54,844 nucleotides of DNA, taken from positions 1 to 54,844 of IMG/VR virus record IMGVR_UViG_3300032293_001351. The stretch is one strand, 5' to 3'. A model generated the notes under the pieces. That model saw nothing but the letters and a program-made list of their open reading frames with translations, searched no databases and was not told where the DNA came from. Origin of the DNA: a virus. Below, one piece after another: positions 27,651-47,955 of this stretch; positions within the stretch are counted from its first letter, which is position 1; every line of letters begins with the position of its first letter. The translations under genes were made by a program, and so were the position numbers.

Positions 27651-29129
27651 ATGCCATCAGCATCTAAACAACAACAGAAATTAATGGGTATAGTTCATGC
27701 CCTTCAAAAAGGAGATATGAAACCTTCACAAGCATCAGGAAAAGCAAAAGAAATGGCTAAATCAATGAAAAAAGGCGATGTAAAAGACTTCGCTGCAACT
27801 AAACATAAGGGCCTTCCTAAAAAGGTTAAGAAAGAAAATATGGGCGTTGCTTCTATGTATGTAGTACGTAAGCCTAATTCTGAAATGAATGAAGCTGATT
27901 TAGTATTAGAGTTTAATCCACTTGAAGGAATTCAGTCTTTAAATATAAACATGAATGATGTGCATTCTGTATATGCTAGTGCTGAAGATGCTCAAGAAAT
28001 TGCTGCAGAAGTATATAAAAAATGTATGGATGAAGCTTTTCAACTTGAAGAAAAGAAAGGTAAAGTTGGAGACAAGTTGAAAAAAACTATTGACCATCTT
28101 GAAAAGAAGCGTAAAGAACATGTTGATATGGCTAAAGAAGATCCTAAGAATGCTTCTAAGCATAAAGAACATATTGCTAAGATTGCTACACAAATTGATG
28201 ATCTTATGAGTAAGATGGAAAAGATTGAAAAGAGCAAAAAGAATGTTGAGAAAAAAGAAGATAAAGAAAATATTAAAGAAAATAAAAAAAGCACTTATAC
28301 TATAGGAGATAAAACTACTCCAAACGGTAAAGTTTATTTTATATATAATAACGATACTGGCACTCAATCTGGAAGTTACAAAACTAAAGAAGATGCACAA
28401 AAAGTATTAGATAAAAAGAAAAATAGTTTAGAAGAAAGTGTATTAGGCACTATAGCATTAGGAGCAACTCTAGGTATGGGAGTAAATTGGTTAAAGAATA
28501 AGAAAAAGCAAATAGCGGCTGCTGATCAAAGAGATCAGGAAGAAAAAGAGCAAGCTAAAAAAGATCAAGAAAGATTAAAAAAAGTAGAAGATGCAAAAGC
28601 TGTTTTAGAAGATCCCAATAATAAACAAGAGTTGCTTAAAATAAAAAATGATAACGAGATTAAAACTTGGATAAAGACCATAGATACAGAATACAATAAT
28701 TTATATAATAAGTGGGTAGACAGGGGAGGATATAGTACTCTTAATGATGAACCACCTCCTGTATGGGGAGACGGTTCTGATAATTTAATAAAAAATATAG
28801 AGAACAAAATAGTGTCACTTGTTGGAGCAGAAAAAGCTACAGAGTTACTAGGAGCTTTAAAAACATCAGGTAAAGGTTTAGATGCGGGACTAAAAAATGA
28901 AAAAAAACTAAAAGAATCTAGCTTAAATATAGGTGATAATTTAAAAGTTGGAGATAAATTTGTAAAAAAAGATAATCAAGTATTAACAATTAAAAAAATA
29001 GTAGGTGATCAGATTTACTTAGAATCTAATAAATTTGAAGGAAAATTATGGCAATGGCCTAAAGAAATATTTGATGCAGATGTTAAATCTGGTGAGCTTA
29101 GATGGCAACCTAAACAAAAACAAGACTAA
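27651..29129 (+). CDS. Multi-module virion-type protein with N-terminal DUF3008 (492 aa)
   Basis: Residues 1-58 (PSASKQQQKLMGIVHALQKG ... DFAATKHKGLPKKV) match the DUF3008 domain of phage and bacterial small proteins. A helical Lys/Glu-rich coiled coil follows at about 125-205, then a small beta module (STYTIGDKTTPNGKVYF), a short hydrophobic segment near 265-280 (SVLGTIALGATLGMGVNWL) and another coiled coil. The end is a beta module (LKVGDKFVKKDNQVLTIKK). Modules are separated by L-x-E[S/A] strings (LEESV, LKESS). This looks like several small domains strung together and possibly cut apart by the prohead protease. Stop and next start overlap as TAATG. Confidence 0.8.
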   Translation: MPSASKQQQKLMGIVHALQKGDMKPSQASGKAKEMAKSMKKGDVKDFAATKHKGLPKKVKKENMGVASMYVVRKPNSEMNEADLVLEFNPLEGIQSLNINMNDVHSVYASAEDAQEIAAEVYKKCMDEAFQLEEKKGKVGDKLKKTIDHLEKKRKEHVDMAKEDPKNASKHKEHIAKIATQIDDLMSKMEKIEKSKKNVEKKEDKENIKENKKSTYTIGDKTTPNGKVYFIYNNDTGTQSGSYKTKEDAQKVLDKKKNSLEESVLGTIALGATLGMGVNWLKNKKKQIAAADQRDQEEKEQAKKDQERLKKVEDAKAVLEDPNNKQELLKIKNDNEIKTWIKTIDTEYNNLYNKWVDRGGYSTLNDEPPPVWGDGSDNLIKNIENKIVSLVGAEKATELLGALKTSGKGLDAGLKNEKKLKESSLNIGDNLKVGDKFVKKDNQVLTIKKIVGDQIYLESNKFEGKLWQWPKEIFDADVKSGELRWQPKQKQD

Positions 29130-29500
29130 TGGAAGCCTTAGGTTTATTTCTTGGAACATTAATGCAGTCTAGAAATCAGGCTCATATATATCATTTACAA
29201 GTACAAGGTCCTGGATCTTTTGCAGCTCATAAAGCTTTGCAAGAATACTATGAGGATATAATACCTTTAATAGATGGGATTGCAGAAGGTATACAGGGTC
29301 GCTATGGTATTATAACAGGATATAAAATGCCTGAAGCTATTCGTGAAGATAATAGTCCTAAAATGTATTTTGAAGGACTTTCTAAGTTTGTAGAAATGAT
29401 CAGACAGGATATTCCTCAAGACTCTTATATTCAAAATGAAGTTGACACTGTTGTTGATCTTATAGAATCTACTAAGTATAAACTCAAATTCTTACAGTAA
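29129..29500 (+). CDS. Dps/ferritin-like protein, DUF5856-type (123 aa)
   Basis: Four-helix pattern with H22, H34, D49 and E53. The spacing H-x11-H-x14-D-x3-E equals that of the Dps ferroxidase centre (E. coli H51, H63, D78, E82, from memory). The local text HLQVQGPGSFAAHKAL and LIDGIAEGIQG also reads like Dps. The third Dps carboxylate (D67) is Gln here. Length 123 is shorter than Dps (about 165), lacking N-terminal DNA-binding and C-terminal parts. It may bind iron or only keep the fold. Coupled by TAATG overlaps to both neighbours, within the putative cargo cluster. Confidence 0.7.
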   Translation: MEALGLFLGTLMQSRNQAHIYHLQVQGPGSFAAHKALQEYYEDIIPLIDGIAEGIQGRYGIITGYKMPEAIREDNSPKMYFEGLSKFVEMIRQDIPQDSYIQNEVDTVVDLIESTKYKLKFLQ

Positions 29501-29964
29501 TGGATAAAGCTTTATTATCTCAAATAAAGAAAGGCATAGAAGTTGAGATGGAGCATACTGATGATCCTAAAATAGCTTTAAAAATAGCTTTAGATCATAT
29601 TAAAGAAGATCCTAAATACTACGATAAACTAATTAAAGCAGGGCTTGAAGAATTAAATGAGGGAGAATTTTGTCCTCAATGTTTAGCTCAATATATAAAA
29701 GATCATGCTAACTCTTTACAAGAAGCAGAGTACAAAGGTAGAAAAGTACAACTAGGAAAACCAATGGCCGGCGATGTTAAAAAGTTTAAGGTGTATGTTA
29801 AGAACGCTAAAGGAAATGTTGTTAAAGTAAATTTTGGCCAGAAAGGAGTAAAAATAAAAAAGGGTAATCCTAAAAGAAGAAAGAGTTTTAGAGCAAGACA
29901 TCACTGTGATACTAATCCAGGACCAAGATGGAAAGCTAGATACTGGTCATGTAGAAAGTGGTAA
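29500..29964 (+). CDS. DUF5661-like plus basic Cys domain, probable head cargo (154 aa)
   Basis: Residues 5-45 (IKKGIEVEMEHTDDPKIALK, then HIKEDPKYYDKL) match DUF5661. A middle linker has FCPQC and SLQEAEY (L-Q-E site). Residues 80-154 form a second conserved domain: GKPMAGDVKKFKVYVKNAKG, then KRRKSFRARHHCDTNPGP and a Cys-Trp end. It is very basic (many Lys/Arg), so it probably binds DNA. Modular build and neighbours suggest a packaged protein; no enzymatic motif seen. Confidence 0.8.
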   Translation: MDKALLSQIKKGIEVEMEHTDDPKIALKIALDHIKEDPKYYDKLIKAGLEELNEGEFCPQCLAQYIKDHANSLQEAEYKGRKVQLGKPMAGDVKKFKVYVKNAKGNVVKVNFGQKGVKIKKGNPKRRKSFRARHHCDTNPGPRWKARYWSCRKW

Positions 29965-29965
29965 T

Positions 29966-30469
29966 ATGATTAAACTATTAGATATATTATTAGAAATGTA
30001 TCCGCCATATAGATCTGATATGGTTAAAAAAGTAAGATACAAAGCTTCTGATACGTGGACCAATAACCCAGACTTAATAGAATTAGATCCCAAAAAAGGT
30101 ACTGGTAAAAAACCTAAAGGATCAGACCGCAGATTATATACAGATGAGAACCCTAAAGATACTGTTAGTGTAAAATTTAAAACAGTTCAAGATATAAAAG
30201 ACACGCTATCTAAGAGTGAGTTCAAATCTAAACCACATGCTAGACAGTCACAAATTATTAATCTAATACATCAGAGAGTTAGAGCAGCTTATAGTAAAGC
30301 TAAAGATCCTGAAGTAAAAGCTAGACTAAAACGTGGATTAGATTATATCGAATCTCGTAAAGAAGCATCAAAAGAAAAAACTAAACGTTTAAATAAAGTA
30401 AAAGAAACAGCAGATCCACAATCAGGAAAAGCAGCACCATATGGTTCTGGTTATGGAGAAGTAAAATAA
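29966..30469 (+). CDS. Basic protein with capsid-targeting-like leader (167 aa)
   Basis: The start is chosen at the ATG of MIKLLDILLEMYPPYRSD. An upstream in-frame start at 29906 would read through the previous gene's coding end and lose the leader. Residues 1-10 end in L-L-E and nearly repeat the kinase leader. The remainder is Lys-rich, with helices at about 85-140 (HARQSQIINLIHQRVRAAYS, ARLKRGLDYIESRKEA) and a Gly-rich tail. Likely DNA-binding cargo; family not recognised. Confidence 0.75.
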   Translation: MIKLLDILLEMYPPYRSDMVKKVRYKASDTWTNNPDLIELDPKKGTGKKPKGSDRRLYTDENPKDTVSVKFKTVQDIKDTLSKSEFKSKPHARQSQIINLIHQRVRAAYSKAKDPEVKARLKRGLDYIESRKEASKEKTKRLNKVKETADPQSGKAAPYGSGYGEVK

Positions 30470-30486
30470 AAATTTAAATAAGTTTC

Positions 30487-31188
30487 ATGTCATTTTTAAA
30501 TACTGCAATACCTGTTACAGAAGCATTTATTAGAGGAAATTTTTTAAGAAATCAAGAAGATTCATTTGATAAAAAGTTTCCATGTTATATTTTTGGAATG
30601 GCTTCAATTCCTTCTCAAGCTCCATTATTTCACTTTATTATGGAAGATGGAGGTTTATGGTGGAGAATGCCAATTCATGCATTTTGTTGGAAAGAAGATG
30701 CTATACAACAAGAATTAGATGAATTAGTTTTATGGGATTCTTTTACATATCATGTATCAGTAACATCTTTTCCTTTACTCAAAAACAAAACTTGCAAATT
30801 TATTTCGAGAAGAAGAATAAAGTATTCAGGAAGATATCTCTTTACTTTAGATTGGTCTAGTTCTGATGATATGAGTGATACAGATTTTGGATTGAGTGAA
30901 TTTCCATCTCAACATAAGTGTGGACATTTTATAGCCATGGATAATGGAAATTTTGCAATACAACCTAATAATCGATTAACAATTCATGATCCGTCTTTTA
31001 CAGTAAAAGAAGATGTTGTTATTAATAGAAAGTATAATACTACTTTATGGACTGCTGAAAGAAATTCAAGATGGGTAACCCCAGATACAGATATTATGAA
31101 TTATGATCATACTAATTTAGAGTCCGGGGAATCTAACTATGAAAGATCTAAAATGTATAATCAATTAGATAATGAAACTGATATTTGA
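30487..31188 (+). CDS. Protein of unknown function, aromatic-rich (233 aa)
   Basis: Trp/Phe/His-rich globular sequence (LFHFIMEDGGLWWRMPIHAF, LVLWDSFTYHVSVTSF, FTLDWSSSDD). It lacks the leader peptide and Lys-rich character of its neighbours. The C-terminal part has Asn/Asp-rich strands (RWVTPDTDIMNYDHTN). I have the impression it belongs to a family seen in other T4-like marine phages, but no function is known. Overlaps the following gene by 17 bases. Confidence 0.75.
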   Translation: MSFLNTAIPVTEAFIRGNFLRNQEDSFDKKFPCYIFGMASIPSQAPLFHFIMEDGGLWWRMPIHAFCWKEDAIQQELDELVLWDSFTYHVSVTSFPLLKNKTCKFISRRRIKYSGRYLFTLDWSSSDDMSDTDFGLSEFPSQHKCGHFIAMDNGNFAIQPNNRLTIHDPSFTVKEDVVINRKYNTTLWTAERNSRWVTPDTDIMNYDHTNLESGESNYERSKMYNQLDNETDI

Positions 31189-31708
31189 TCATTCTTCAAG
31201 TGTTTACAATGGTCAAAATCCCCTAATCTATTTAGAAGCTAAAAGAGATAGCGAATCAGCTAAATACATGTTTGAAAATGGATGGGTTGTTTATTATAAA
31301 GACAATCAGGAATACTGGTATCAAACTCAATCTTCAAGATTAAAGATACAAGAAATTTCTAGCAAAAGAAAAAACCAACTATCCAAAATAAAAATCTCTT
31401 CACATACAGAAAACAAACAAATAGAAACCCCATCAGATCTACAACTTTATAATCAAGGAAAATTTGAAGACTTTTTTTTTGATGATCTTTTTTGGGGTAG
31501 GATAATCTATGTAGAAGATCAAGTATTGTTCTCTGTCATGAATGAAATAAAAAGTAAAAAGTCATATGGAACTCTTTCATTTTACTACTTACTAAAAAAA
31601 CTTATAAATGACTATGAGTATTTGTATTTAGCTGATTATTTTGATATTTTCAATTATAAAAATAAGTTACAGGGTTTTGAATATTGGGATGGAAATACCT
31701 GGAAATAG
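31172..31708 (+). CDS. Protein of unknown function (178 aa)
   Basis: Starts MKLIFDHSSSVYNGQNP inside the end of the previous gene in another frame. Basic in the middle (SSKRKNQLSKIKIS), Tyr/Phe-rich at the end (YLYLADYFDIFNYKNKL, FEYWDGNTW). The 'YLY-x-ADYFDIFNYK' end faintly recalls acyltransferase (GNAT-like) folds, not enough to assign. Together with the 30487 gene it forms a pair unlike the surrounding cargo-type genes. Confidence 0.7.
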   Translation: MKLIFDHSSSVYNGQNPLIYLEAKRDSESAKYMFENGWVVYYKDNQEYWYQTQSSRLKIQEISSKRKNQLSKIKISSHTENKQIETPSDLQLYNQGKFEDFFFDDLFWGRIIYVEDQVLFSVMNEIKSKKSYGTLSFYYLLKKLINDYEYLYLADYFDIFNYKNKLQGFEYWDGNTWK

Positions 31709-31755
31709 TATAAATATGATAAGTGTAGTAAACTCCAACTTTAATTAATAGCCAG

Positions 31756-31763
31756 ATATTTAT
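31756..31763 (+). promoter_or_regulatory. ATATTTAT late-type motif before the 31770 gene
   Basis: Reads cagATATTTATATTcat then ATG, 6 bases on. It starts a run of five coupled cargo-type genes. Confidence 0.5.
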
Positions 31764-31769
31764 ATTCAT

Positions 31770-32087
31770 ATGACAAAGCTTCTAGACATTTTAAAGGAAA
31801 TTAAAGAGTCTTTCATAGATTTTGCAGAAACCAGAATGAAGGGTGCAGAGAAGATTGCAAATAATGCAAAAGAAAAAGGTGGACTTTCTATGCTTACTTA
31901 CAGCCACTTTATAGTAAAGCTTCCATATTATAAGAAAGCTAAACAAGGTGAGTTTAATATAGAAGAAGCTAAAAAAGAATATGATAAAACATATAAAAGT
32001 ATATCTTTGAATATGACTCAAACAGAGTTTCAAAGAGAGGTTGGTAGACTAGAAGTATTAGGTGAACTAATAATTAGAAATAAATGA
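31770..32087 (+). CDS. Small protein with capsid-targeting-like leader (105 aa)
   Basis: Leader MTKLLDILKEIKES ends in L-K-E at residue 10. The body is helical and basic (FAETRMKGAEKIANNAKEKG, EEAKKEYDKTYKSI) with a central LTYSHFIVKLPYYKKAK. No catalytic motif. Stop overlaps the next start by 4 bases (ATGA). Confidence 0.72.
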   Translation: MTKLLDILKEIKESFIDFAETRMKGAEKIANNAKEKGGLSMLTYSHFIVKLPYYKKAKQGEFNIEEAKKEYDKTYKSISLNMTQTEFQREVGRLEVLGELIIRNK

Positions 32088-32614
32088 TCAAGCTTAAAGA
32101 CATATTAAATGAAGTTATCTCAGAAATGGGAGTAATGACAATACAACCCATTCTAGATTTGTATGATCAAAATCCTGAATTAGTATCTAAAGTAGTATTC
32201 CCTTATCATAAACTAAGATCTAAAGAAGATGTACAAGAGGAACTTTTAGGGATGGAATATGAAGAGTTTGATTCAATAAGAAGAGAATTAGATTTAAATC
32301 CTTTAGAAGAAGCTTGTTGGAAAGGATATAGACAAAAAGGATTAAAAAAGAAAGGGAATAGAATGGTTCCTAATTGTGTTAGAATAAGTGAAACAAAAAA
32401 GAAAAATAAAGTTAATCCTGCATATCTTACTAAAGATGCAGCGGCAATGAAAAAAGAGATTGATAGAGTAAAGAAGTTAAAGTCTGATGATCCTTCAGCA
32501 TATGGTAAATGGGATGCTGATTATTCAGATAAGGCTAAAACTAAGAAGTATAAGACTAAGAAAAGTGCGGCAACTTCTGCTTACGAAAAAAGGTTTGGTA
32601 AAAAAGAAAAATAA
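32084..32614 (+). CDS. Modular basic protein with capsid-targeting-like leader (176 aa)
   Basis: Leader MIKLKDILNEVISE ends in L-N-E. A helical module follows (PILDLYDQNPELVSKVVFPY). Then comes L-E-E-A and a short Cys module (CWKGYRQKGLKKKGNRMVPN, then Cys), which I recall as a recurring element in environmental T4-like phages. I-S-E follows, and a Lys/Asp/Ala-rich end (YKTKKSAATSAYEKRFGKK). Three small modules are thus separated by L/I-x-E strings. Likely DNA-associated cargo. Confidence 0.75.
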   Translation: MIKLKDILNEVISEMGVMTIQPILDLYDQNPELVSKVVFPYHKLRSKEDVQEELLGMEYEEFDSIRRELDLNPLEEACWKGYRQKGLKKKGNRMVPNCVRISETKKKNKVNPAYLTKDAAAMKKEIDRVKKLKSDDPSAYGKWDADYSDKAKTKKYKTKKSAATSAYEKRFGKKEK

Positions 32615-32889
32615 TGAAACTAAAAGAACTATTACAACAGTTAGTTGAAGAAAAATTAAAGTTTCAGCATTCTAATGCACCAGATGCAAAAGGTAGATTT
32701 AAAGAGTTGCCAGCAGAAAAATTAGCTAATTGGTTGATTAAAACAAGAAAAAGTAATATGAGTAAGATAACAGGCTCATTAAACCAACAAGCTAATTTTA
32801 ATCGTAAAGATGATCCTGCTTATGCAAGGAAGATGGATAGAACTAGAGAGATAGTTAAAAAGAAACTAGATAAAAAGAAAAAGAAATGA
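32614..32889 (+). CDS. Small basic protein with leader-like N-terminus (91 aa)
   Basis: MKLKELLQQLVEEKLKF is a leader-like helix. The conserved core is LPAEKLANWLIKTRKSNMSK followed by TGSLNQQANFNRKDDPAY, a helix pair with an Asn/Gln-rich loop. The C-terminus is almost pure Lys/Arg. Probably binds DNA. Overlaps neighbours by 1 and 4 bases. Confidence 0.72.
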   Translation: MKLKELLQQLVEEKLKFQHSNAPDAKGRFKELPAEKLANWLIKTRKSNMSKITGSLNQQANFNRKDDPAYARKMDRTREIVKKKLDKKKKK

Positions 32890-33173
32890 TAAATAAATTA
32901 GATATATTAAAACAATTACTCATTCTTGAGTATGATGCTGAAGTAGAAAAAGCATTAGCAAATAAAGCTAAGGCTACTAAAATATCTAAATCGATACTCA
33001 AAAGTGTTTATGCCAAAGGTGTGGCAGCTTGGAAAACAGGACATCGTCCTGGAGTTGGTCAACATCAATGGGCAATGGGTAGGGTAAATTCATTTGTAAC
33101 AGGTAAAGGTGGAGCAAGAAAAGCAGATAAAAGTTTATGGAAAAAAGCAAGTAAATCTAAAAAGAAAAAATAA
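32886..33173 (+). CDS. DUF5824-like small protein with leader-like N-terminus (95 aa)
   Basis: Leader MINKLDILKQLLILE ends in I-L-E. Residues 34-75 (SILKSVYAKGVAAWKTGHRP, then QHQWAMGRVNSF) match DUF5824, a small domain found across several unrelated phage groups, function unknown. Lys-rich tail. The domain is widely shared, but the leader is specific to this cluster, as if the module had been recruited. Confidence 0.78.
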   Translation: MINKLDILKQLLILEYDAEVEKALANKAKATKISKSILKSVYAKGVAAWKTGHRPGVGQHQWAMGRVNSFVTGKGGARKADKSLWKKASKSKKKK

Positions 33174-33174
33174 A

Positions 33175-33858
33175 ATGACTAATATTTCATTCTTTAAGGC
33201 TCTTTTAATGAAAGAGTTGAACGAAAAAGATCTTCCTGGAAATCAAGAAAAGATAGCACAAGCAGCTGAACCTAAAGATAAAATTACTGGTGCAGACTTT
33301 GCTGCACTTCGTGCAAAAAAAGATGTAAAAAAAGAAGGTGAAGACCATGAAGTATCAATGGCTCAAAATAGCCTTAAATCAATTATAAGTTCAGCAAGTC
33401 AATTAATGAATATGTTAGGTCAAGATGAGAAAGATATCCCAGCTTGGATCCAAGATCATATTACTAATGCAGAGAACTTTATTAATCAAGCTTCTAAAAA
33501 TTATCACGAATATAACGAAGGTAATACTGGTGAGTATGATATGGATGAACTTCCAGATGGGACAGTTGAAAAGTCAGCAGGTGATGCAGAAGATTTAGAT
33601 ATGAAACTTCAATCTATGATGGAAGCCAAGTTTATTAGTTTTAAAGATTTTTCTAAAAATTTAGAATTGTATAAAAAAGAAAATATCACTAAATCTCAAC
33701 TTATTACTTCTTATAATAAGTTAAATGCAAAAGATCAAGATAAAGCTAAGGAACTTGCTAAAGGTTTAGATGTGTTACCTAGTCCAAAAAAGATTAACGA
33801 AACTTCTCTTAAATCTATGATGGAAAGTGTTGTAAAGCGTAAAAAAGCAAATAAATAA
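33175..33858 (+). CDS. Helical cargo-type protein (227 aa)
   Basis: The start is at the ATG two bases after the previous stop (MTNISFFKALLMKELNE, ending L-N-E). An earlier in-frame start would lie within the previous gene. Residues 60-115 (MAQNSLKSIISSASQLMNML, then IPAWIQDHITNAENFINQAS) form a helical module that recurs in T4-like marine phages. SMMEAKFIS and SLKSMMESVV near the end repeat a leader-like pattern. No enzyme motif. Confidence 0.75.
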   Translation: MTNISFFKALLMKELNEKDLPGNQEKIAQAAEPKDKITGADFAALRAKKDVKKEGEDHEVSMAQNSLKSIISSASQLMNMLGQDEKDIPAWIQDHITNAENFINQASKNYHEYNEGNTGEYDMDELPDGTVEKSAGDAEDLDMKLQSMMEAKFISFKDFSKNLELYKKENITKSQLITSYNKLNAKDQDKAKELAKGLDVLPSPKKINETSLKSMMESVVKRKKANK

Positions 33859-35750
33859 TGCCAGTGAGTAACCAAGACATATTAAAAACAATACTCTTAC
33901 AAGAGTTAGATAGGATGGAACCTGAACAATCAACGTTTGAGGATGATCCTATGCAGTTTATATTAAAAAAGTATGTAGGACTTAAGAATACTCTTGAGTA
34001 TCTTATGACTCCTTCATTTGAAGAATATATCACTGGTATATATGTAGTTGCTCCTAAGCCAACAACATTTAAAATTGTTTTACATAATGGACAATTCTTT
34101 TTCTTGCAGTTCATGGGTAAAGCTTATGAAGCAACTGTAGAAGGAAAGAAATACTATTTAATGTCTATTGGTGAAAAAGAAAGATGTATGGTTGCAATAT
34201 CAAGGCTTCTTAGGTTTGGCAATCCTTTAAAGACCAAGGGACCAGATGGTGCAGAGCAAGGTACTAGAGATTCAGAAGGACCTGCAGAAGAAGCAGGACC
34301 AACACCACCAGCAGAAACTAGTGCAGAAGAAGGCGGAGGAGAAGAGTTAACGGAGTCTAGGATATTAGAGGGCATTTTAAAAAAAAACCTAACCACCGAA
34401 TTAACTATAAGCCCTGATTATAAAACAAAATCAGGTTTTAATCCTTACTATACATTAAAGGATGATGTAAAAAATGATATTGCAAAAGCAGCTAAAGTAG
34501 ATCCTAGTAAAATAATTTTTAAAAGTACTAATGATCCTAAAGGCAAACCTGCTTTAAATAGAAAAGGAAACTATTCTTTTCAAGTCAGTATAGATCAAGA
34601 TGGAAATATAAAAGATACAAATTTTTATGTTAAAGCATCTAAATCTGAAGTTACTGGTCACTATGGAACAGAAAAAAGGAAAGACTCTACTGCATCTTCT
34701 GATGTTAATGAATTTTTAACCGTTTATTTTTTGATAAATAATTTTAAAGGTACACCTGAAGAATTTATAAAATTTGTTAAAGGTAAAAAAGGATCTACTG
34801 GAGTTAAAACTGGAGATGGTGAAGATGTGATGTATGATAGATTATACAAAATGTTGGAAAAAGATCAGAGTCCTGAAAGAGATATTGCAATAGGAATCAA
34901 TAATGCTAAAGCAGTTAAATCTGATATAGGAGGAAATACTAAGTCTATTTCTCAAGTTTATTGGACTCCTAGAACAAAACCTGAAGGAGTTGCAAGCAAA
35001 AATCCTTCAGATGTGTTAATTAAATTTAAAGATGGGAGCTTTCTAGGATACTCTAATAAAATAACTGGTAAAGGTCCTGATGTAACTCCTAAATTTAATA
35101 CAAGCCTATCTGCATTTTCTAGTAAAATTGGAGATAGTCAACAGGATCAAAATATAAAAGATATAGTTGACAATTCTTGGAAACAAGCTGCAAAAAAAGT
35201 AAAAGGACCTAATGCATCTAAAGCTATTAAGTCTTTTGACATTTCTAAAGAGAAACATTCTGAAACTACTAGTAGGGGCGCTTTTGCAAATCTTGCTAGA
35301 GAGTTTGATAAAGACGGATTAGACTTTTATACAGACGGTTTTTATTACCCTTTTAGAAATCAACTTATACAAAATTTAGGAGAATACTGGTCAGATCCTG
35401 TAAATTTAGCGTATTTATTAAAGACAATAGGATTTTATACTTATGGAGAAGTTGATCCTAATATAACAGATGCGCCTTATAAATTATTAATAGGCACTGT
35501 GGATGGATCTACAATAAAAGATATTACTTCTGATGAAGAATCAAAAATATTATTAACAAAGTCTACTCCTAAAAATATAAAAAATATAGAGTTTGTATAC
35601 CCTGGAAATGGTCAATCGTTCGCTATTAAATTTTATAGTTCTTTAATTAAATCAAATGTAAACATACCTTTGACTGTAAGAACTAGAGCCTCTGGTGGCT
35701 GGGCGGGAAAATCACTTTATATTAATACTCCAGGTTTAAAAATAGGATAA
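33858..35750 (+). CDS. Two-part virion-type protein with internal leader-like peptide (630 aa)
   Basis: Leader-like start MPVSNQDILKTILLQELDR. Domain 1 (about 20-125) is a compact alpha/beta unit (SFEEYITGIYVVAPKPTTFK). Residues 126-163 are an acidic Glu/Gly/Pro/Ala linker. Then LTESRILEGILKKNL (164-178) repeats the leader pattern inside the chain, with L-T-E and I-L-E sites. Domain 2 (about 182-630) is unrecognised; DVLIKFKDGSFLGYSNK (385-401) weakly resembles a PD-(D/E)XK strand pair, but an acidic residue is missing. The protein may be a fusion of two cargo proteins, cut at the linker during head maturation. Confidence 0.75.
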   Translation: MPVSNQDILKTILLQELDRMEPEQSTFEDDPMQFILKKYVGLKNTLEYLMTPSFEEYITGIYVVAPKPTTFKIVLHNGQFFFLQFMGKAYEATVEGKKYYLMSIGEKERCMVAISRLLRFGNPLKTKGPDGAEQGTRDSEGPAEEAGPTPPAETSAEEGGGEELTESRILEGILKKNLTTELTISPDYKTKSGFNPYYTLKDDVKNDIAKAAKVDPSKIIFKSTNDPKGKPALNRKGNYSFQVSIDQDGNIKDTNFYVKASKSEVTGHYGTEKRKDSTASSDVNEFLTVYFLINNFKGTPEEFIKFVKGKKGSTGVKTGDGEDVMYDRLYKMLEKDQSPERDIAIGINNAKAVKSDIGGNTKSISQVYWTPRTKPEGVASKNPSDVLIKFKDGSFLGYSNKITGKGPDVTPKFNTSLSAFSSKIGDSQQDQNIKDIVDNSWKQAAKKVKGPNASKAIKSFDISKEKHSETTSRGAFANLAREFDKDGLDFYTDGFYYPFRNQLIQNLGEYWSDPVNLAYLLKTIGFYTYGEVDPNITDAPYKLLIGTVDGSTIKDITSDEESKILLTKSTPKNIKNIEFVYPGNGQSFAIKFYSSLIKSNVNIPLTVRTRASGGWAGKSLYINTPGLKIG

Positions 35751-35765
35751 AAATAAATTTTTTTA

Positions 35766-40611: not shown

Positions 40612-40619
40612 ATATTTAG

Positions 40620-40627: not shown

Positions 40628-40651
40628 TACTAGCGGACTCGTAAAAAAACT

Positions 40652-41503
40652 ATGGCAATAAAACATTCCAAATATCGCAATACTGGTATTTTATTTGAAC
40701 TACTAGTTAGACAGACCACTTCCGATCTTTTGAATAATCAAGATTCAAAGGCTGTTAAGATACTTAAAAAGTATTTTACAAATACAGAATTAGGTAAAGA
40801 ATATGGCCTTTATAGTGCCTTTTCAACCAGTCCTAAACTATCGGAAGGTAAAGCTGAAATTTTAGTTTCTACTCTTGTTGAGCAATATAATAAACTTGAC
40901 TATGAGAAAATAAACAAACTAAAATATAACTTGATAAAAGAAATTAAGCAGAACTACGATTTAGATAATTTCTTTAAGGCTAAAATAGATAACTACAAGC
41001 CTTATGCTTCAATTTATACTATTCTTGAGTCACAGAACTCAAAGATATCAGATACTAAACAGTTGATTATAAACAAAATTAATCTTCTTGAACACTTAAC
41101 AAAGCAAGATCTTTCTGATTCTAAGGCTCCTAAGTCTATAGTAGAAGATCTTATGAAGGAAGACAAAGAGATCAGACTTTTGGCTTATAAGCTAATGGTT
41201 GAGAAGTTTAATAACAAGTATCAAGACATGTCTGAAAAGCAGAAAAAAGTATTAAAAGAATATATTACCAACATTTCTGATACAAAAAATCTCAAAACAT
41301 ATTTAAATAGTCAGTTAGATGAAATTCAAAAAGAACTAACTGAATTAAAAGAGTCTTCAAAAGACCAGGTTGTTAAAATCAAATTAGAAGAAGTATTAAA
41401 ATTTGTAAGTCCTATTAAAGAAAATCAGTCTATTAAAGATGAGACTATAACAGGAATTTTACAATATTTTGATTTGATTGACGAGTTAAAAAACAACCAA
41501 TAA
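40652..41503 (+). CDS. Helical head-region protein (283 aa)
   Basis: Starts MAIKHSKYRNTGILFELLVR, a conserved start in T4-like marine phages. Otherwise helical, Lys/Leu-rich, with a C-terminal coiled coil (YLNSQLDEIQKELTELKESS). LSE and LKE strings fit the prohead protease rule. Placed between portal and core proteins, it may be an assembly core protein. Coupled to the next gene by a TAATG overlap. Confidence 0.78.
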   Translation: MAIKHSKYRNTGILFELLVRQTTSDLLNNQDSKAVKILKKYFTNTELGKEYGLYSAFSTSPKLSEGKAEILVSTLVEQYNKLDYEKINKLKYNLIKEIKQNYDLDNFFKAKIDNYKPYASIYTILESQNSKISDTKQLIINKINLLEHLTKQDLSDSKAPKSIVEDLMKEDKEIRLLAYKLMVEKFNNKYQDMSEKQKKVLKEYITNISDTKNLKTYLNSQLDEIQKELTELKESSKDQVVKIKLEEVLKFVSPIKENQSIKDETITGILQYFDLIDELKNNQ

Positions 41504-42369
41504 TGTCTAAGTTTAACAATCAATTTGCTACTCAAAAACTTCGCCAAGAAATGTCTGTGACTGGTACTGGAGCTACTTTTACTCCTGGAACTGGTGAACA
41601 AACTGCTCCTAGAGCAACTAAGAAAGTAGTTAAAAAGAAGTTAACCCCAGAAGAAAAAGACGTCGAACCTAAATTAGCAGCAGGTAAAGCTAAAGTATAT
41701 ATGAAAGATAAATGGGGTTGGAAAGACGCTCCATCTGTTCCTAATCGTCCATCAAAAGGTGGTTTTATCTACAAACAATTATTTGAAGAGCTAAATGACT
41801 TTGTTAAAGAGAATAAACTCAATATAAAGAATATTGGAGACTTTAATTATAATATGAGTATGCTAGGTTTAGCGGCTCAACAAATGAGAGATGAACAAAT
41901 GTTTAATACTCTCGCTAAATTAAGATCTCAAACAGACTTAATGTCTGCTATAGCTATTCTTGATGAGATAAAAATGAAGATAGAAAATGCACAAAATCTA
42001 GATAGAATAACTAAAAAAGATGCATTAAAAGCAATAGAGAATATCAGAAATGAATATGAACCTGAGGAACAAGACGGTGATGAAGATAGCTATGATTGGT
42101 TTACTAATAGTAATATAAATGAAAGTTATTCTAAGTTTAAAACTGAAACTAAAACCAGAGGCAAATCAGATCAATTCCATCAAGCAGTTCGTGAAGTAAG
42201 AAGGAAGGTACAGGAAATTAATAGACTATTTGAATACGTAAGCCGCCTAAAATCAGAGCTATCTGAAGGTGAAGGTGGTCTTAAATATAAAATGCATACA
42301 GAAAAAGCCCTTGCAAAAATCAAGGAAATGGTTTCAGAACTTAATCAAAACATAAAAAAGTTTAAGTAA
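41503..42369 (+). CDS. Head-region protein sharing an 11-residue motif with the capsid protein (288 aa)
   Basis: Residues 23-33 are GATFTPGTGEQ, identical to residues 74-84 of the major capsid protein. After a basic linker (KKVVKKKLTPEEK) comes GWKDAPSVPNRPSKGGFIYK, then a helical middle and a C-terminal coiled coil (REVRRKVQEINRLFEYVSRL). INE and LSE strings are present. A protein of the prohead core or inner shell that mimics the capsid N-arm is one reading. Coupled on both sides. Confidence 0.78.
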   Translation: MSKFNNQFATQKLRQEMSVTGTGATFTPGTGEQTAPRATKKVVKKKLTPEEKDVEPKLAAGKAKVYMKDKWGWKDAPSVPNRPSKGGFIYKQLFEELNDFVKENKLNIKNIGDFNYNMSMLGLAAQQMRDEQMFNTLAKLRSQTDLMSAIAILDEIKMKIENAQNLDRITKKDALKAIENIRNEYEPEEQDGDEDSYDWFTNSNINESYSKFKTETKTRGKSDQFHQAVREVRRKVQEINRLFEYVSRLKSELSEGEGGLKYKMHTEKALAKIKEMVSELNQNIKKFK

Positions 42370-42497: not shown

Positions 42498-42505
42498 ATA
42501 TTTAT
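42498..42505 (+). promoter_or_regulatory. ATATTTAT late-type motif before the core/protease genes
   Basis: Reads gataaATATTTATTAGc then ATG, 4 bases on: the closest fit to the shared consensus together with one of the shortest leaders. Confidence 0.55.
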
Positions 42506-42509
42506 TAGC

Positions 42510-44009
42510 ATGAGAACAATTGAATTATATCGTAAGCATAAAGCCGGTGAAGTAAGTCGTGAGAAGTTTCTTTACGAAGTACGCCGTGATAAAAATCTTC
42601 CTTGGGTAACCAATGTTACTTCTTTTGATGATGCTGTAAGAATCCTTAAAAATAAGGGCGTAATTAGTGAAGCTGAGATCAGTGAAAATTATGAAGTACA
42701 TTATTCAGATGGAGTTAGGCAATCTAAAAAGTTTAAAGATATAAATCAAGCTATGTCTTTTGCTAAGTCGTTGGTAAGTACTAATGACAAATTACAACAC
42801 GTAGATATATTTAAAGCAGGACCTAATTTTAATTCAACAGCAGATACTGATGCAGTAGTTGCTTGGTGGGGAGACGGTTCTTTTATGGATAATAAGTCAA
42901 AAAATGATCCAAAATTAGCTGCTAAAAAAATGTCTTTAAGCGAAGAAACTGATCAAGAAAGAGATACACGCCGCAAAGAGGGTGATAAAGAGATGGATCA
43001 AACTTTGTTGACTTTTTTAAAGAATTTAAACGATAAATCTCCTACAGACCATATCGCTCAAAAGATTAAAGATCAAGAAGCAGAGATGATTAAAAAATAT
43101 GGTTCTTTAAATGAGGTTGATAATAATATTCCTACAGATCCTGCAGTCGATAGAGTAAATCCGTACTTCTTGAAAAGAGGAGTGCAGATGTTATTAGCTA
43201 AAGAAAAAGAACTTACTAATGATTCATATATTAAAGCTCTAAATAAAGCTGCATCAATGCTTGAAAAGAATCCTCATGCATTTGATGAAGAGATGTTTGC
43301 TAATGCAAAAGATGTAGAAAAGGCAGATGCTAAGCTTGAAACTGAAGAAGTTAAAAAAGCTAATCATAAGAATAAGGCTAACGAAATGAAGAAAGTAAAG
43401 GTTAAATCCTTAAAAGAGTCTGCTATCGAAGACCTTACTACGCATCTTAAAAAAAAAGATTTAGTTAACGAAGATAGCCACTGGAAACATCATGTGGGTT
43501 CAGAAGTGCATACTCCTGATGGTCAAGGTAAAGTAATTGAAATAGTTGGTGGTACATTTACTGTTGAAATGAAAGATGGTACCCAAAAAGATTATCAGAT
43601 TAATACTGTAGATCATTTTACTCAAAAGTCACAAGAACAAGAGCCTACTCAAGGAGCGCAATCAGAACCAACTGTAAAAGATATGTGGGCAAACTGGGAT
43701 AAGAATCAAGCAAAACCTTTTGGTGGCATGGTAGGAGATCCTGAACAATTTAAAAAGCCTTTAGATTTATCTAAAATCAAACAATACATGGAAATGTATA
43801 AGGATGATAAAAAGAAAATGAAAAAACTTAAAGAGGTTTTAAAAAAATTGAAAGAAGCTTATGTTATAAAAACAGTTGGATCAAATACTGTTGTCGGAGC
43901 TGGAAAAAATGATAGTATGGGTAAAAACCAAGCTAAAGGAATAGAACAAAATACTGGAGAGCCATTAAAAATTGTAAATTTAAAAACAGGCCAAGAACAA
44001 AATGTCTAA
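42510..44009 (+). CDS. Prohead core-type protein with several protease-like sites (499 aa)
   Basis: N-terminal domain MRTIELYRKHKAGEVSREKF ... LPWVTNVTSFDDAVRILKNK is a conserved phage module. It is followed by ISEAE, LSEET, LNEVD, LKESA and LKEAY, all L/I-x-E strings at module boundaries. Middle parts are helical; residues about 330-370 form a small SH3-like beta module (GSEVHTPDGQGKVIEIVGG). Gene order before gp21 fits gp67/gp68/IP-type core proteins. Overlaps the protease start by 8 bases. Confidence 0.78.
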   Translation: MRTIELYRKHKAGEVSREKFLYEVRRDKNLPWVTNVTSFDDAVRILKNKGVISEAEISENYEVHYSDGVRQSKKFKDINQAMSFAKSLVSTNDKLQHVDIFKAGPNFNSTADTDAVVAWWGDGSFMDNKSKNDPKLAAKKMSLSEETDQERDTRRKEGDKEMDQTLLTFLKNLNDKSPTDHIAQKIKDQEAEMIKKYGSLNEVDNNIPTDPAVDRVNPYFLKRGVQMLLAKEKELTNDSYIKALNKAASMLEKNPHAFDEEMFANAKDVEKADAKLETEEVKKANHKNKANEMKKVKVKSLKESAIEDLTTHLKKKDLVNEDSHWKHHVGSEVHTPDGQGKVIEIVGGTFTVEMKDGTQKDYQINTVDHFTQKSQEQEPTQGAQSEPTVKDMWANWDKNQAKPFGGMVGDPEQFKKPLDLSKIKQYMEMYKDDKKKMKKLKEVLKKLKEAYVIKTVGSNTVVGAGKNDSMGKNQAKGIEQNTGEPLKIVNLKTGQEQNV

Positions 44010-44631
44010 ACAACTCTTAATAGAATACAACGCTTTCCAACCACTTCCTCAATCATTGACTGAAGGTCGTCGTTTAGCTAATGGTAATATGGTAGTATCC
44101 GGACTTGTTCAGGCTACTGATAAACCTAACGCAAATAGAAGAATATATCCTTATCAAACTTTATTTGAGCAAGTACAAAAATATATTGCTGGACCAATTG
44201 CAGAGAATAGAGCTTTAGGAGAACTAGATCATCCAGAGTCTTCTATTATTAACCTTAAAAATGTTAGTCATAATATAATAAGACTTTTCTGGGAAGGTAA
44301 AGATTTATATGGAGATGTTGAAATTCTTCCTACACCTTCTGGAAATATATTAAAAGAATTGTTTAAGAATAATATTACTGTTGGTATTTCATCTAGGGCT
44401 ATGGGTTCTGTTACTCCAATTGGTGAAGGTCTTGTTCAAGTTGAAGATGATCTAGATCTTATTTGTTGGGACTTTGTATCTACACCATCAACTTATGGTG
44501 CATACATGAAACCTGTAGCAGGATTAAGAGAATCAGTAGATCATACAATAATTCAACGTAAAGAAAGTAAAGTGCATCAATTAATATCAGATATTATCTG
44601 CTCCCAATCAGGTATTTGCTGTATTAAATAA
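44002..44631 (+). CDS. gp21: Prohead core protease, T4 gp21-like (209 aa)
   Basis: Herpesvirus/phage prohead serine protease (S78-like) layout: GELDHPES with His77, GISSRAMGS with Ser130/Ser131, and an acidic DDLDLICWDFV strand. gp21 digests the scaffold after L/I-x-E and also cuts itself and gp23. The protein itself has LTE before GRRLANG (cut would follow Glu21) and LRE before SVDH near the C-terminus, matching self-processing. Located between core and scaffold genes as in T4. Confidence 0.94.
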   Translation: MSKQLLIEYNAFQPLPQSLTEGRRLANGNMVVSGLVQATDKPNANRRIYPYQTLFEQVQKYIAGPIAENRALGELDHPESSIINLKNVSHNIIRLFWEGKDLYGDVEILPTPSGNILKELFKNNITVGISSRAMGSVTPIGEGLVQVEDDLDLICWDFVSTPSTYGAYMKPVAGLRESVDHTIIQRKESKVHQLISDIICSQSGICCIK

Positions 44632-45113
44632 TGGATAACTCACTAGAAATATTAAGGTTAAAGAAGTTAGCAGGACTTTTATCAGAAAGTGAAGTACATG
44701 AATTAGGTTTAAAAGACCTTGGTATTGGTGCTGCAATGGCAGCTAGTTCTATATTTGGTAGTCCACAACAAACTAAAGCTCAAGAACCTCAACAAATAGT
44801 GCAACAAGCTAGTGATGATATTGATATTACAAGTTCTAAAGCTGCAAAACAAATTGAAAAACAAGGTTATAAACCTGCAGCTGGTGGATTGCCTATTGAT
44901 ATATCTATAGAAAGACTGCAAGATATAATAGGTAAAGGAATGAAAATAGTACAAGGTAAAGGTGTAGGAACTACTCAATCAGCAGCACAAATGGCTGCAA
45001 CTCAAAAAGCAAAATCAAAAGCATCAGGCCAAATAACACAGACTAATATAACTTTCTATAAAACTCTAGATAACGGAAATATTGAAGTTATAGTATTTTT
45101 AGGTAGTAAATAA
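44631..45113 (+). CDS. Small head-region protein with leader-like N-terminus (160 aa)
   Basis: MDNSLEILRLKKLAGLLSES ends in L-S-E at residue 19. The 'LKKLAGL' piece also closes the scaffold protein (QKLAGIK). An Ala/Gln-rich middle follows (AAMAASSIFGSPQQTKAQEP), then Ala/Lys/Ser-rich sequence and a C-terminal strand pair (ITFYKTLDNGNIEVIVFLG). No known family. Overlaps the protease stop by one base and ends before a hairpin. Confidence 0.72.
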   Translation: MDNSLEILRLKKLAGLLSESEVHELGLKDLGIGAAMAASSIFGSPQQTKAQEPQQIVQQASDDIDITSSKAAKQIEKQGYKPAAGGLPIDISIERLQDIIGKGMKIVQGKGVGTTQSAAQMAATQKAKSKASGQITQTNITFYKTLDNGNIEVIVFLGSK

Positions 45114-45121
45114 AAAATATT

Positions 45122-45153
45122 TCTAAGTTTATGTATTTTACTACAAACTTAGA
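45122..45153 (+). other. Hairpin in the scaffold leader region
   Basis: TCTAAGTTT (45122-45130) pairs perfectly with AAACTTAGA (45145-45153) around a 14-base loop. There is no T-run, and the late-type motif begins at its 3' edge. It may act as an attenuator or 3' end of the upstream message. A second small stem, GCCAT (45170-45174) with ATGGC (45183-45187), follows in the 96-base leader. Confidence 0.5.
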
Positions 45154-45160
45154 TATTTAT
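45153..45160 (+). promoter_or_regulatory. ATATTTAT late-type motif before scaffold and capsid genes
   Basis: Reads ttagATATTTATGGtata, 96 bases before the scaffold ATG. The leader is far longer than at other copies and contains a stem at 45170-45187. Confidence 0.45.
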
Positions 45161-45256
45161 GGTATATGCGCCATGATCTAATATGGCACTACTATAAAAA
45201 AATCCTTATATTGCTTTCATAATCTAATAAGCAATCCCCGACACAATCTTATAAAC

Positions 45257-46288
45257 ATGAGCAAATTGTATCAAGACGCTATCCTTGATGCTAAAGCCTT
45301 AAGAGCATCTGCTATGGCAAACGCCAAAGCTGCGCTTGAAGAAGCTTTCGAACCTAAGATTCAAGAGATGCTTCGTTTGAAGTTATCTGAAGAATTGGAT
45401 GAAGTAGAAGATCTTAAAGAAGATGAGGCTGAAGTAGAACAAGATATAGCAAACATGGAAGAAACCTATTCTGAAGATGGAATGGAAGAAAACCTTGACA
45501 TCAATGAGGCTGAGTTAGAAGAAATTCTTGCTCAACTCGAAGAACTTTCTAACGTTGATGAAGTTGGCCACGATAAACCAGAAATGGAAGAGGCTAAGCA
45601 CGATGAAATGAAAGAAGAAAATTTAAACGAAGCTGAAGAAGAAGAAGCTGAAGAAGAAGAGGAAGAAGTTGAAGGTGGAGAAGAAGTTGGTGACGAAACT
45701 AAAATTATCGACATCACTCTTGGTGACCTTAAACAAGTTCTTCAATCTGTAATGGCCGGATCACAAGATATGGGCATGGACGTTCCTTCTGACGAAGCAG
45801 ACGCTGATTCTGAAGCTGAAGCTGAAATTTCATTAGACGAAATTCTTGCTGAACTTGAAGCAGAAGGTATTGAAGAAGCTAAAGATTCTGAACCTGAGCT
45901 TGAAGAGAAAAAGGAAGAAAAAGACGAAAAGAAAGACAAAGTAGAAGAAGAGCTTGAAGAAGCTAATGCTACTATTGAAGAACTTCGTCAAAGCCTACAA
46001 GAGGTTAATCTTCTTAATGCAAAATATCTTTACATGAATAAGTTGTTCAAAGCTAAGACTTTGACTGAATCTCAAAAAGTAAAAGTAATTAATGCTCTTG
46101 ATCGCGCTACATCTGTAACTGAGGTTAAGAACACTTTTGAAACTTTGAAAGAATCTTTCGAATCTAAAAAGCAACTTAAAGAATCAATTGGTTTTGCTTC
46201 ACAAGCAGCTGGTATAGCTCCTAAACAACCTATTATCGAGCAAGATAATATGATGAGTAGATGGCAAAAACTTGCTGGAATCAAATAA
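45257..46288 (+). CDS. gp22: Prohead scaffold protein, gp22-like (343 aa)
   Basis: Helical N-terminus (YQDAILDAKALRASAMANAK), then a very acidic Glu-rich centre (AEEEEAEEEEEEVEGGEEVG) and a Lys/Glu coiled coil near 215-250. The conserved C-terminus has LRQSLQEVNLLNAKYLYMNK, SQKVKVINALDRATSVTEVK and the final SRWQKLAGIK, as in gp22-type scaffolds. INE, LNE, LTE and LKE strings occur throughout, as expected for a scaffold destroyed by the protease. It lies between protease and capsid genes. Confidence 0.9.
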   Translation: MSKLYQDAILDAKALRASAMANAKAALEEAFEPKIQEMLRLKLSEELDEVEDLKEDEAEVEQDIANMEETYSEDGMEENLDINEAELEEILAQLEELSNVDEVGHDKPEMEEAKHDEMKEENLNEAEEEEAEEEEEEVEGGEEVGDETKIIDITLGDLKQVLQSVMAGSQDMGMDVPSDEADADSEAEAEISLDEILAELEAEGIEEAKDSEPELEEKKEEKDEKKDKVEEELEEANATIEELRQSLQEVNLLNAKYLYMNKLFKAKTLTESQKVKVINALDRATSVTEVKNTFETLKESFESKKQLKESIGFASQAAGIAPKQPIIEQDNMMSRWQKLAGIK

Positions 46289-46311
46289 CAAAAAACAAAA
46301 TTAATAACAAA

Positions 46312-47955
46312 ATGGCAAATTTAGTACAATCTTTATTGACTGAATCCGCTAATACAGCTTTCTCTGATCAACATGGTGTTGCTCAGCGTCTTGCTAAAAA
46401 GTGGAGCAAGTCAGGCCTTCTCGAGGGCATGCAAGATTACGACGCTAACAACATGGCGGTAATCCTCGAAAACCAAGCTAAACAGCTTGTAGTTGAATCT
46501 TCTAATACTAACGGTGGTCTTAATTCTGGCGGTGCTACCTTTACTCCTGGTACTGGTGAGCAGTGGGCTGGTGTAGCTCTTCCATTAGTTCGTAAGATCT
46601 TTGGTCAAATCGCTGCTAAAGAATTCGTTTCTGTACAGCCTATGAATCTTCCTGCTGGTTTGGTATTCTATCTTGATTTCCAATACGGAAACACTAAGAA
46701 TCCTTTCACTGCTGGTGATTCTATTTATGGTACTCCAAGTGCAAACTTTGGTAACCTTGCTGAAGGTGCTCTTTATGGTGCTGGTCGCTTTGGTTATTCT
46801 TTGAACCAATTTTCAGCTTCTGGCGTAACTGCTACTGCAGCTACTGCATCTTATGCTGAGATTGAATTCAATGTTAACTTTTCTGCATCTGTTGCTGCTG
46901 GTCAAGTTAAAAAACTTACTGTTGCAACTTCTTCTTTAACTACTCCAAATCTTGATGGAGTACGTGCATTTATTGTTACTTCTGGATCAGTATCTGTTGC
47001 TGATAACTTGCAGCAGTTTACTAGACTTAATGGTGCTAACATTGATTTCTTTGTTACTGCATCTACAGCAGAAATTCCAACATTGAATGCTTTTGTTGTT
47101 TATTATAACAAAGCTACTGATTTCAACAGTCGTGGTGATTTTGAAGATAGAACTGGTAACCCATCTGTTCCAAACAGTTTGTCTGCAACTTCTATCGTTA
47201 TCCCTGAGATCAATGTTCAAATGAAGTCTCAAACAATCAGTGCTAAAACTCGTAAGTTGAAAGCACAATGGACTCCAGAATTTGCACAAGACTTGAATGC
47301 TTACCATTCTCTTGACGCTGAAGCTGAATTGACTGGTCTTCTTTCTGAGCATATCTCTCTTGAGATTGACTTGGAAGTATTGGATATGTTAATTCAAAAC
47401 GCTCCAACTATTGAGTACTGGTCAGCTAAAGTTGGTGAGCAAATCAACTCAACAAACACTGCTTTCACAAGCAATACTGCTGGTGTTTATTACACTCAAA
47501 TGAGCTGGTTCCAGACTTTGGGTATCAAACTTCAGAAAGTATCTAATATCATCCATCAGCGTACTTTACGTGGTGGTGCTAACTTCATGGTAGTTTCTCC
47601 TTCTGTAGCTACAATTCTTGAGTCTATCCCAGGATTTGCTGCTGATACTGATGGTGCAGCTGATACAATGAAGTATGCTTTTGGTGTACAAAAAATCGGT
47701 CAGTTGAACAGCCGTTACAAGGTTTATAAAAACCCTTACATGCTTGAGAACGTTATCTTGCTCGGTTTCCGTGGCAATCAGTTCCTTGAGTGTGGCGCTG
47801 TTTACTCTCCATATGTTCCATTGATCATGACTCCACTTGTGTACGATCCAAATACCTTCACTCCAAGAAAAGGTATTATGACTCGTTACGCAATGACTAT
47901 GGTACGTCCTGAATACTATGGCTTGGTAGTAGTAGCTGATCTTAACGTAGTGTAA
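46312..47955 (+). CDS. gp23: Major capsid protein, T4 gp23-like (547 aa)
   Basis: Start chosen at MANLVQSLLTESA, which gives a T4-like N-terminal arm. The in-frame ATG at 46261 lies inside the scaffold gene. Conserved gp23 text: VALPLVRKIFGQIAAKEFVSVQPMNLPAGLVFYLDF, KLKAQWTPEFAQDLNAYHSLDAEAELTGLLS and YKVYKNPYMLENVILLGFRG. A V-V-E site at residues 60-62 corresponds in position to the gp23 maturation cut (after residue 65 in T4). LTE and LLE lie earlier in the arm. It forms the capsid hexamers. A strong terminator follows. Confidence 0.97.
   Translation: MANLVQSLLTESANTAFSDQHGVAQRLAKKWSKSGLLEGMQDYDANNMAVILENQAKQLVVESSNTNGGLNSGGATFTPGTGEQWAGVALPLVRKIFGQIAAKEFVSVQPMNLPAGLVFYLDFQYGNTKNPFTAGDSIYGTPSANFGNLAEGALYGAGRFGYSLNQFSASGVTATAATASYAEIEFNVNFSASVAAGQVKKLTVATSSLTTPNLDGVRAFIVTSGSVSVADNLQQFTRLNGANIDFFVTASTAEIPTLNAFVVYYNKATDFNSRGDFEDRTGNPSVPNSLSATSIVIPEINVQMKSQTISAKTRKLKAQWTPEFAQDLNAYHSLDAEAELTGLLSEHISLEIDLEVLDMLIQNAPTIEYWSAKVGEQINSTNTAFTSNTAGVYYTQMSWFQTLGIKLQKVSNIIHQRTLRGGANFMVVSPSVATILESIPGFAADTDGAADTMKYAFGVQKIGQLNSRYKVYKNPYMLENVILLGFRGNQFLECGAVYSPYVPLIMTPLVYDPNTFTPRKGIMTRYAMTMVRPEYYGLVVVADLNVV

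Follow-up and report, generated by a model that had tools for sequence, protein, structure and literature searches.

The prohead protease gp21 of bacteriophage T4 cuts after the sequence L/I-x-E. In the leader of the T4 internal protein IPIII, residues 4 and 7 act in targeting and residues 8 and 10 in processing (PMC9026906). Polyvalent proteins are multi-enzyme polypeptides of phages and plasmids for which injection and proteolytic separation of the modules have been predicted (Iyer et al., 2017, PMC5512222). MuF toxins of temperate phages are head toxins with a constant and a variable part, usually followed by a small open reading frame (ORF) as putative immunity gene (PMC5576092). Here, the head and cargo genes of a T4-like phage are described. 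The window, i.e. the whole stretch of DNA analysed, is a 54,844-base virus record (IMG/VR IMGVR_UViG_3300032293_001351) assigned to such a phage. It encodes an S77 prohead protease and many proteins with L/I-x-E strings (below, LxE). These are enriched in head proteins, occupy characteristic positions, are conserved, and mark points at which modules are swapped, or are fused in one phage and separate in another. Sequence comparison indicates that the strings are probably cleavage sites of the S77 protease, located both in N-terminal leaders and in the joints of modular proteins, which are the probable cargo of the virus head.

A preliminary description of this DNA had regarded LxE strings between modules as signs of polyprotein-like processing by the prohead protease. 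Every string it named is found in the protein stated: LEE262/SV and LKE422/SS in the 492-amino acid (aa) protein, LQE75/AE in the 154-aa protein, LEE76/AC and ISE103/T in the 176-aa protein, LTE166/S and ILE171/G in the 630-aa protein, ISE54/A, LSE145/E, LNE202/V, LKE303/S and LKE449/A in the 499-aa protein, INE207/S and LSE255/G in the 288-aa protein, and LTE21/G in the protease (slashes follow the Glu of a putative site). The strings exceed chance, with composition-matched shuffled sequences as expectation: The eight named proteins contain 29 [LI]xE[SAGV] motifs versus 8.8 (z 7.0), and all 28 head-cluster proteins 49 versus 21.1, a 2.3-fold excess (z 6.5). No excess is seen in the tail module (11 versus 12.5 expected). 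The control motifs LxK, LxD, LE, LxxE, LxxxE, VxE and the reversed motif are flat in the 28 head-cluster proteins (|z|<1) and over both head sets (|z|<1.3); in the tail set, a z of 2.4 was obtained for VxE.

Many LxE strings lie at module borders as proposed, but many others are the ends of N-terminal leaders that resemble capsid-targeting sequences (CTS). These leader sites contribute the stronger part of the signal and were absent from the earlier list. A 10-residue leader, M-x-K-L-x-x-[IL]-L-x-E/, is common to unrelated proteins. Among 2,204 proteins scanned, the pattern M..[hydrophobic]..[hydrophobic][LI].E was found at the start of 44 versus 2.2 expected. These 44 fall into 26 groups with unrelated bodies and mostly have the form MIKLxx[IL]LxE. 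The T4 CTS has the same geometry (hydrophobic residues at 4, 7 and 8, Glu at 10). In Flavobacterium phage immuto, the closest isolate in the phage collection (complete genome, record MW353175, L084; capsid 55% identical), 24 of 33 head-segment proteins have an N-terminal [LI]xE with Glu at position 6-24 versus 8.0 expected, and the other four genome segments are at expectation. In three other contigs (G001, G003, G004), N-terminal [LI]xE peaks at or near the head segments, in G003 also elsewhere. Cargo leaders are also present on three immuto proteins encoded far from the head segment, at 1803, 24569 and 25061, which makes these candidates for internal head proteins.

A second leader, RMQKLAG[IL]-[IL]xE/ (e.g. 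MKKQILSEQFRRMQKLAGIITE/S), is N-terminal in 17 groups. In the first locus set, its core RMQKLAGI forms the scaffold C-terminus in 61 proteins and is nearly absent from protein interiors. In 36 of 50 distinct scaffold C-termini, [LIV]xE is located 6-22 residues ahead of the KLAG C-terminus. Since LxE follows the leader form and precedes the scaffold form, the KLAG tag looks detachable at both ends. Cargo may enter the core by mimicry of the scaffold tail. In the window, the proteins starting at 24426, 29966, 31770 and 32084 have leaders of the first type, that at 32886 a longer variant, and that at 44631 the KLAG type (Table 1).

Module borders were defined by homology as the end or start of a module in one protein that is absent from its relative. 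LxE[SAGVN] within 15 residues was counted as a hit, random positions in the same proteins served as null, and truncated ORFs at contig ends were excluded. The enrichment at borders on which the preliminary description had staked its proposal was found: 15.8 of 31 collapsed head/cargo borders had a hit versus 6.2 expected (z 4.3). For 50 other borders, 5.9 hits compare with 5.4 at random. With more loci and greedy clustering, 30 of 90 head/cargo borders had a hit versus 16.1 (z 4.0), i.e. about twofold enrichment; the looser [LI]xE yielded 54 versus 30.3 at the same borders (z 5.6). Borders in other genes gave 3 of 56 versus 4.1.

Several observations weigh against a reading of the strings as protease sites. 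About two thirds of the head/cargo borders lack a strict LxE within 15 residues. In the new loci alone, the strict motif was found at 4.1 versus 3.7 borders, which is not significant; this single-link clustering over-collapsed the data, with one cluster comprising 245 of 672 borders, and was replaced by the greedy one. A mild rise at head borders (z about 2.3) is also seen for E[SAGVN] and LxxE[SAGVN], so Glu-rich linkers account for part of the signal. VVE at the window capsid site does not conform to [LI]xE. Some LxE are located inside well-folded helices, where they are probably left uncut. The slight rise of E[SAGVN] and [LI]xxE[SAGVN] at head borders and the very Glu-rich scaffold would also suit the view that LxE is due to chance or composition, as a frequent string of helical linkers rich in Glu and Leu, and has no marking role. 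This is highly improbable and already contradicted: Over whole head proteins the control motifs are at chance, tail and replication genes show no enrichment, key motif columns are 85-100% conserved within flanks of only 16-45% identity, and module swaps fall at the motif.

The clearest swaps concern the 630-aa protein, which is composed of a constant carrier and an interchangeable C-terminal module (C-module). The complete joint reads EELTE/SRILE/, and [SAVTY][RKTS]ILE is retained in nearly all relatives, whichever module comes next. Carrier residues 1-150 are 100% identical among the window and the loci L142, L144 and L148, and in BLAST comparisons the parts of these three behind the joint have no similarity to the window C-module. 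At least four unrelated C-terminal modules are found behind the carrier joint. The three larger C-module families yielded no match when their profiles were compared; the best stretches were the joint itself (SRILE.ILK) or short and unconvincing. DNA identity drops from 80-100% to about 55% across nucleotides 480-600, and the joint is located at 498-513. Since the carrier/swap pattern is present in dozens of contigs from many metagenomes, with the same downstream genes where the sequence suffices, assembly chimeras are unlikely. The immuto carrier terminates with a stop codon, and a separate 353-aa gene lies behind it. No immunity-like gene varies with the C-module: In all loci with downstream sequence, a gene of one 81-aa family is found behind each module type. 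DNA modification was considered as self-protection, as the immuto annotation includes a 7-deazaguanine pathway, but in seven relatives no QueC was detected. The carrier matches no Pfam family at E<=1 and, therefore, no MuF domain.

Sequence searches of Pfam and PDB left the C-modules without a name, and their PHROG matches are all of unknown function. The AlphaFold2 (AF2) model of the window C-module has a predicted local distance difference test score (pLDDT) of 79.7. Its alignment with VIA-align yielded the restriction enzymes HinP1I (Z 8.4 and 7.3) and MspI (Z 7.0), with the next match at 4.4; Z values under about 8 can be due to chance. A Foldseek search of this model against PDB found nothing significant (E>=0.04). 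The motif [ST]D..x(5-12)[SN]xK, a pattern picked post hoc, occurs once in each of 25 C-modules from unrelated families (2.5% in shuffles). It would place Ser at the Glu position of a D...[E/Q/N/S]xK active site. From fold resemblance and motif, a nuclease function of the C-modules is predicted and likely, but not established. Homologs of the window C-module are found without carrier in several contigs (L252-L265), some of them beginning with MKSFSQF.

In other cargo proteins, the same modules are encoded by separate genes in one phage and joined by LxE in another. Modules of the 415-aa fusion have stand-alone counterparts in L123, L117, immuto and L122, the last with the start MIKLIDILQE/ISKK. 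The module SSLNIGDN... follows LKE422/ in the window 492-aa protein, and in L193 it is joined by IKE/ immediately to the constant part; in L134 and L136, different modules follow [IL]KE/ behind this constant part. The modules of the 154-aa protein are preceded by LxE/ also in L115, L118, L134, L143, L189 and immuto. The module ACWKGY... of the 176-aa protein has [LIV]xE ahead of it in six architectures (L207, L209, L211, L239 and L200 among them), twice as N-terminal leader, and many loci match this protein from residue 74 onward only. A fusion in L103 reads ...AIRQLLTE/GGAAGHMAHPFD, and the same domain alone begins in L092 with MNLIKILLSE/GGTGGHMAHPFD. In L116, a fusion contains ...LLVE/GGNVFQ, and the stand-alone gene of immuto starts with M-GGNVFS. 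In L108, homologs of the 176-aa and 95-aa proteins are fused, and SINE/GD at the mature start replaces the stop codon and the second leader. Such fusions could alternatively lose only their leader and work uncut as multidomain proteins, with the internal LxE as relic leaders. The joints SRILEAILKE/A and AIRQLLTE/GG do resemble embedded leaders, as the loss of a stop codon would leave behind. In L108, however, the second leader has vanished and a site is nevertheless found at the mature start, and the persistence of sites while flanks diverge is unexpected of relics. This alternative is, therefore, improbable.

Besides cargo, the sites are found in proteins of the prohead core. In the window, the genes for terminase, portal, the 283-, 288- and 499-aa proteins, S77 protease, the 160-aa protein, scaffold and major capsid protein are arranged in an order that matches T4 17/20/67/68/21/22/23, with the 283-, 288- and 499-aa genes between portal and protease like T4 67/68. 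In the AF2 model of the 499-aa protein, low-confidence links are located at 55-58, 122-147, 198-205, 292-303 and 451-489, and E54, E145, E202, E303 and E449 are inside or at most two residues away from them. E54, E202 and E303 are conserved in 98%, 95% and 85% of the orthologs, with flanks 16-44% identical. The E207 motif of the 288-aa protein is kept in 96% of 52 orthologs (flanks 32% identical). The scaffold contains 20 LxE, with E29, E271 and E309 conserved to 100% and E299 to 94%.

In T4, the core proteins gp22, gp67 and gp68 are cut to multiple fragments that exit the head (PMC9026906). Because of this and its T4 67/68 position, the 499-aa protein is read as a dismantled core protein. By analogy, the 499-aa and 288-aa proteins and the scaffold are more likely shredded core proteins than cargo polyproteins. 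It could be asked if internal LxE chiefly serve such shredding, only leaders concern cargo, and no functional modules are freed. The positions of the 283-, 288- and 499-aa genes, the fate of the T4 core proteins and the 20 LxE of the scaffold are in agreement with this view. However, the 630-, 492-, 415-, 176- and 154-aa proteins contain folded enzyme-like domains and modules that are also found on their own, often behind a separate leader, and the sites are located at module starts. As a general explanation, shredding is, hence, rather unlikely.

The protease sites LTE21 and LRE177 are [LIVM]xE in 58 of 58 orthologs with flanks 40-45% identical. Conservation near both ends fits self-processing at both ends, and the two are likely self-cleavage sites. 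For T4 gp21, C-terminal processing is known and N-terminal processing was suggested (PMC9026906). In the capsid propeptide, E10 and E52 are conserved to 97% and 98%. The V-V-E of the capsid arm is present and its codon end at 46497 was given correctly, but counted from the M at 46315 the residues are V59-V60-E61, one off from the earlier numbering. LVVE61/SS coincides in position with the maturation site of T4 gp23, which is LTE/AEIGG. The 288-aa protein and the capsid have GATFTPGTGEQ in common, located in the latter just past the propeptide; in relatives, an alignment of about 40 residues is obtained for the common stretch (L029 and L108).

The following model can be proposed. An N-terminal leader (MxKLxxILxE/ or RMQKLAG[IL]xxE/) would take a protein into the prohead core and be removed there, as in T4 internal proteins. 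A fusion would be loaded as one precursor and then cut to separate the mature proteins, and cargo modules would be exchanged or fused between phages as blocks bounded by LxE sites. The S77 protease may, thus, cut LxE sites after loading, and the freed nuclease-like, nucleotidase, kinase-like and other modules may be injected with the DNA. Polyprotein-like processing as originally proposed is in good part supported, as an extension of what gp21 does in T4, by LxE at borders, the adjacent S77 gene, conservation in divergent flanks and the fusion and swap points; for the many leader ends it does not apply. For the 630-aa protein, a delivery system is put forward tentatively: A leader-tagged carrier might bring a swappable restriction-enzyme-like module into the head, where the prohead protease would free it for injection with the genome, and the effector could be changed by recombination at the LxE joint without an immunity gene.

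The leaders and joints provide a sequence rule to predict which anonymous phage proteins are packed into the head and injected, together with their mature ends, in the abundant uncultured T4-like phages. Leader and joint sequences may, as the swaps found in nature suggest, be portable and serve to load foreign proteins into phage heads. The role of injected proteins, an old question, becomes testable with concrete candidates like the nuclease-like modules.

Table 1. Proteins and protein parts of the window with putative LxE sites or leaders (slash, bond behind the Glu; nucleotide positions in brackets).
Feature	Position	Strand	Remarks
Zeta-toxin/kinase-like protein	24426..25211	+	PF06414 E 6.5e-11; leader MIKLLDLLLE/V (24426-24455)
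415-aa three-module fusion	25795..27042	+	HExxH module, 5'-deoxyribonucleotidase-like module (phrog_2643 E 3e-26), third module; IYE120/S (26152-26154), IYE131/V (26185-26187), INE298/V (26686-26688)
492-aa protein	27651..29129	+	constant DUF3008-containing part (1-~205) plus exchangeable modules; IKE210/N (28278-28280), LEE262/S (28434-28436), LKE422/S (28914-28916)
154-aa protein	29500..29964	+	DUF5661-like part; LNE54/GEFCP (29659-29661), LQE75/AEYKG (29722-29724)
167-aa protein	29966..30469	+	leader MIKLLDILLE/M (29966-29995)
105-aa protein	31770..32087	+	leader MTKLLDILKE/I, kept in immuto as MRLLELLRE/A
176-aa protein	32084..32614	+	leader MIKLKDILNE/V; joint LEE76/ACWKGY (32309-32311)
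95-aa protein	32886..33173	+	leader MINKLDILKQLLILE15/Y
630-aa protein, constant carrier	33858..34355	+	leader resembling a CTS (ILLQE16/), then a folded module and a Pro/Glu linker; first joint LTE166/ (34353-34355)
630-aa protein, joint peptide SRILE171/	34356..34370	+	between carrier and C-module
630-aa protein, interchangeable C-module	34371..35747	+	predicted PD-(D/E)XK-like nuclease (PSD...SNK)
288-aa protein, T4 gp67/68 position	41503..42369	+	INE207/SY (42121-42123), LSE255/G
499-aa protein, T4 gp68 position	42510..44009	+	AF2: string of small domains, pLDDT 62.6, predicted TM score (pTM) 0.24
Prohead core serine protease (S77, T4 gp21-like)	44002..44631	+	PF03420 E 3e-22; phrog_207 E 9e-47; LTE21/GR (44062-44064), LRE177/SV (44530-44532)
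160-aa protein	44631..45113	+	KLAG leader LEILRLKKLAGLLSE19/S (44685-44687)
Scaffold (T4 gp22 position)	45257..46288	+	conserved internal LxE; C-terminal detachable-looking tag IIE328/QDNMMSRWQKLAGIK
Major capsid protein	46315..47955	+	phrog_138 E 1e-69; LTE10/SA (46342-46344), LLE37/G, ILE52/N

Two further genes of the cargo region encode proteins without obvious leader, 29129-29500 (phrog_858, starvation-inducible-regulator family, perhaps Dps-like) and 30487-31188 (phrog_3704, annotated as ferredoxin). The terminase gene of one relative (L128:1628-4336) has an intein-like insertion (CFSANTRIFTS...VTEHGIVHNC), which the window terminase does not contain.

T4 leaders and LxE processing are already known. 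With the T4 CTS/gp21 system, the window shares the S77 protease, LxE sites, the key positions of the 10-residue leader, the order 20-67-68-21-22-23 and an LxE near the protease N-terminus. In contrast to T4, dozens of proteins bear leaders, a second leader type is common with the scaffold C-terminus, and joints connect exchangeable modules; the T4 internal proteins lose their leader, but form no module chains (PMC9026906). In SPN3US and phiKZ, many head proteins are likewise cut after x-x-E by a gp21-like protease, with multiple propeptide cuts; of the 14 cuts mapped there, 13 take off N-terminal propeptides, and in the portion of that article consulted no module joints are seen (PMC10052503). 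In the literature searched, without most subscription papers, nothing was found on cargo modules that are exchanged at prohead-protease joints. For polyvalent proteins, separation by an embedded metallopeptidase was proposed, whereas the sites described here are probably those of the head's own protease. The 415-aa fusion includes an HExxH-containing module (CHELVHH, without Pfam match); no HExxH was seen in the 630-, 492-, 176- and 154-aa proteins. A constant N-terminal delivery part and a variable C-terminal effector, nucleases included, are shared with MuF toxins (PMC5576092) and bacterial polymorphic toxins (PMC3482391). Unlike these, the carrier system has neither a MuF domain match nor a co-varying downstream immunity gene, and a putative prohead-protease site is located at the border. 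One mechanism, i.e. to fuse, load once and cut with the head protease, would link the internal proteins of T4 with polyvalent proteins and polymorphic toxins.

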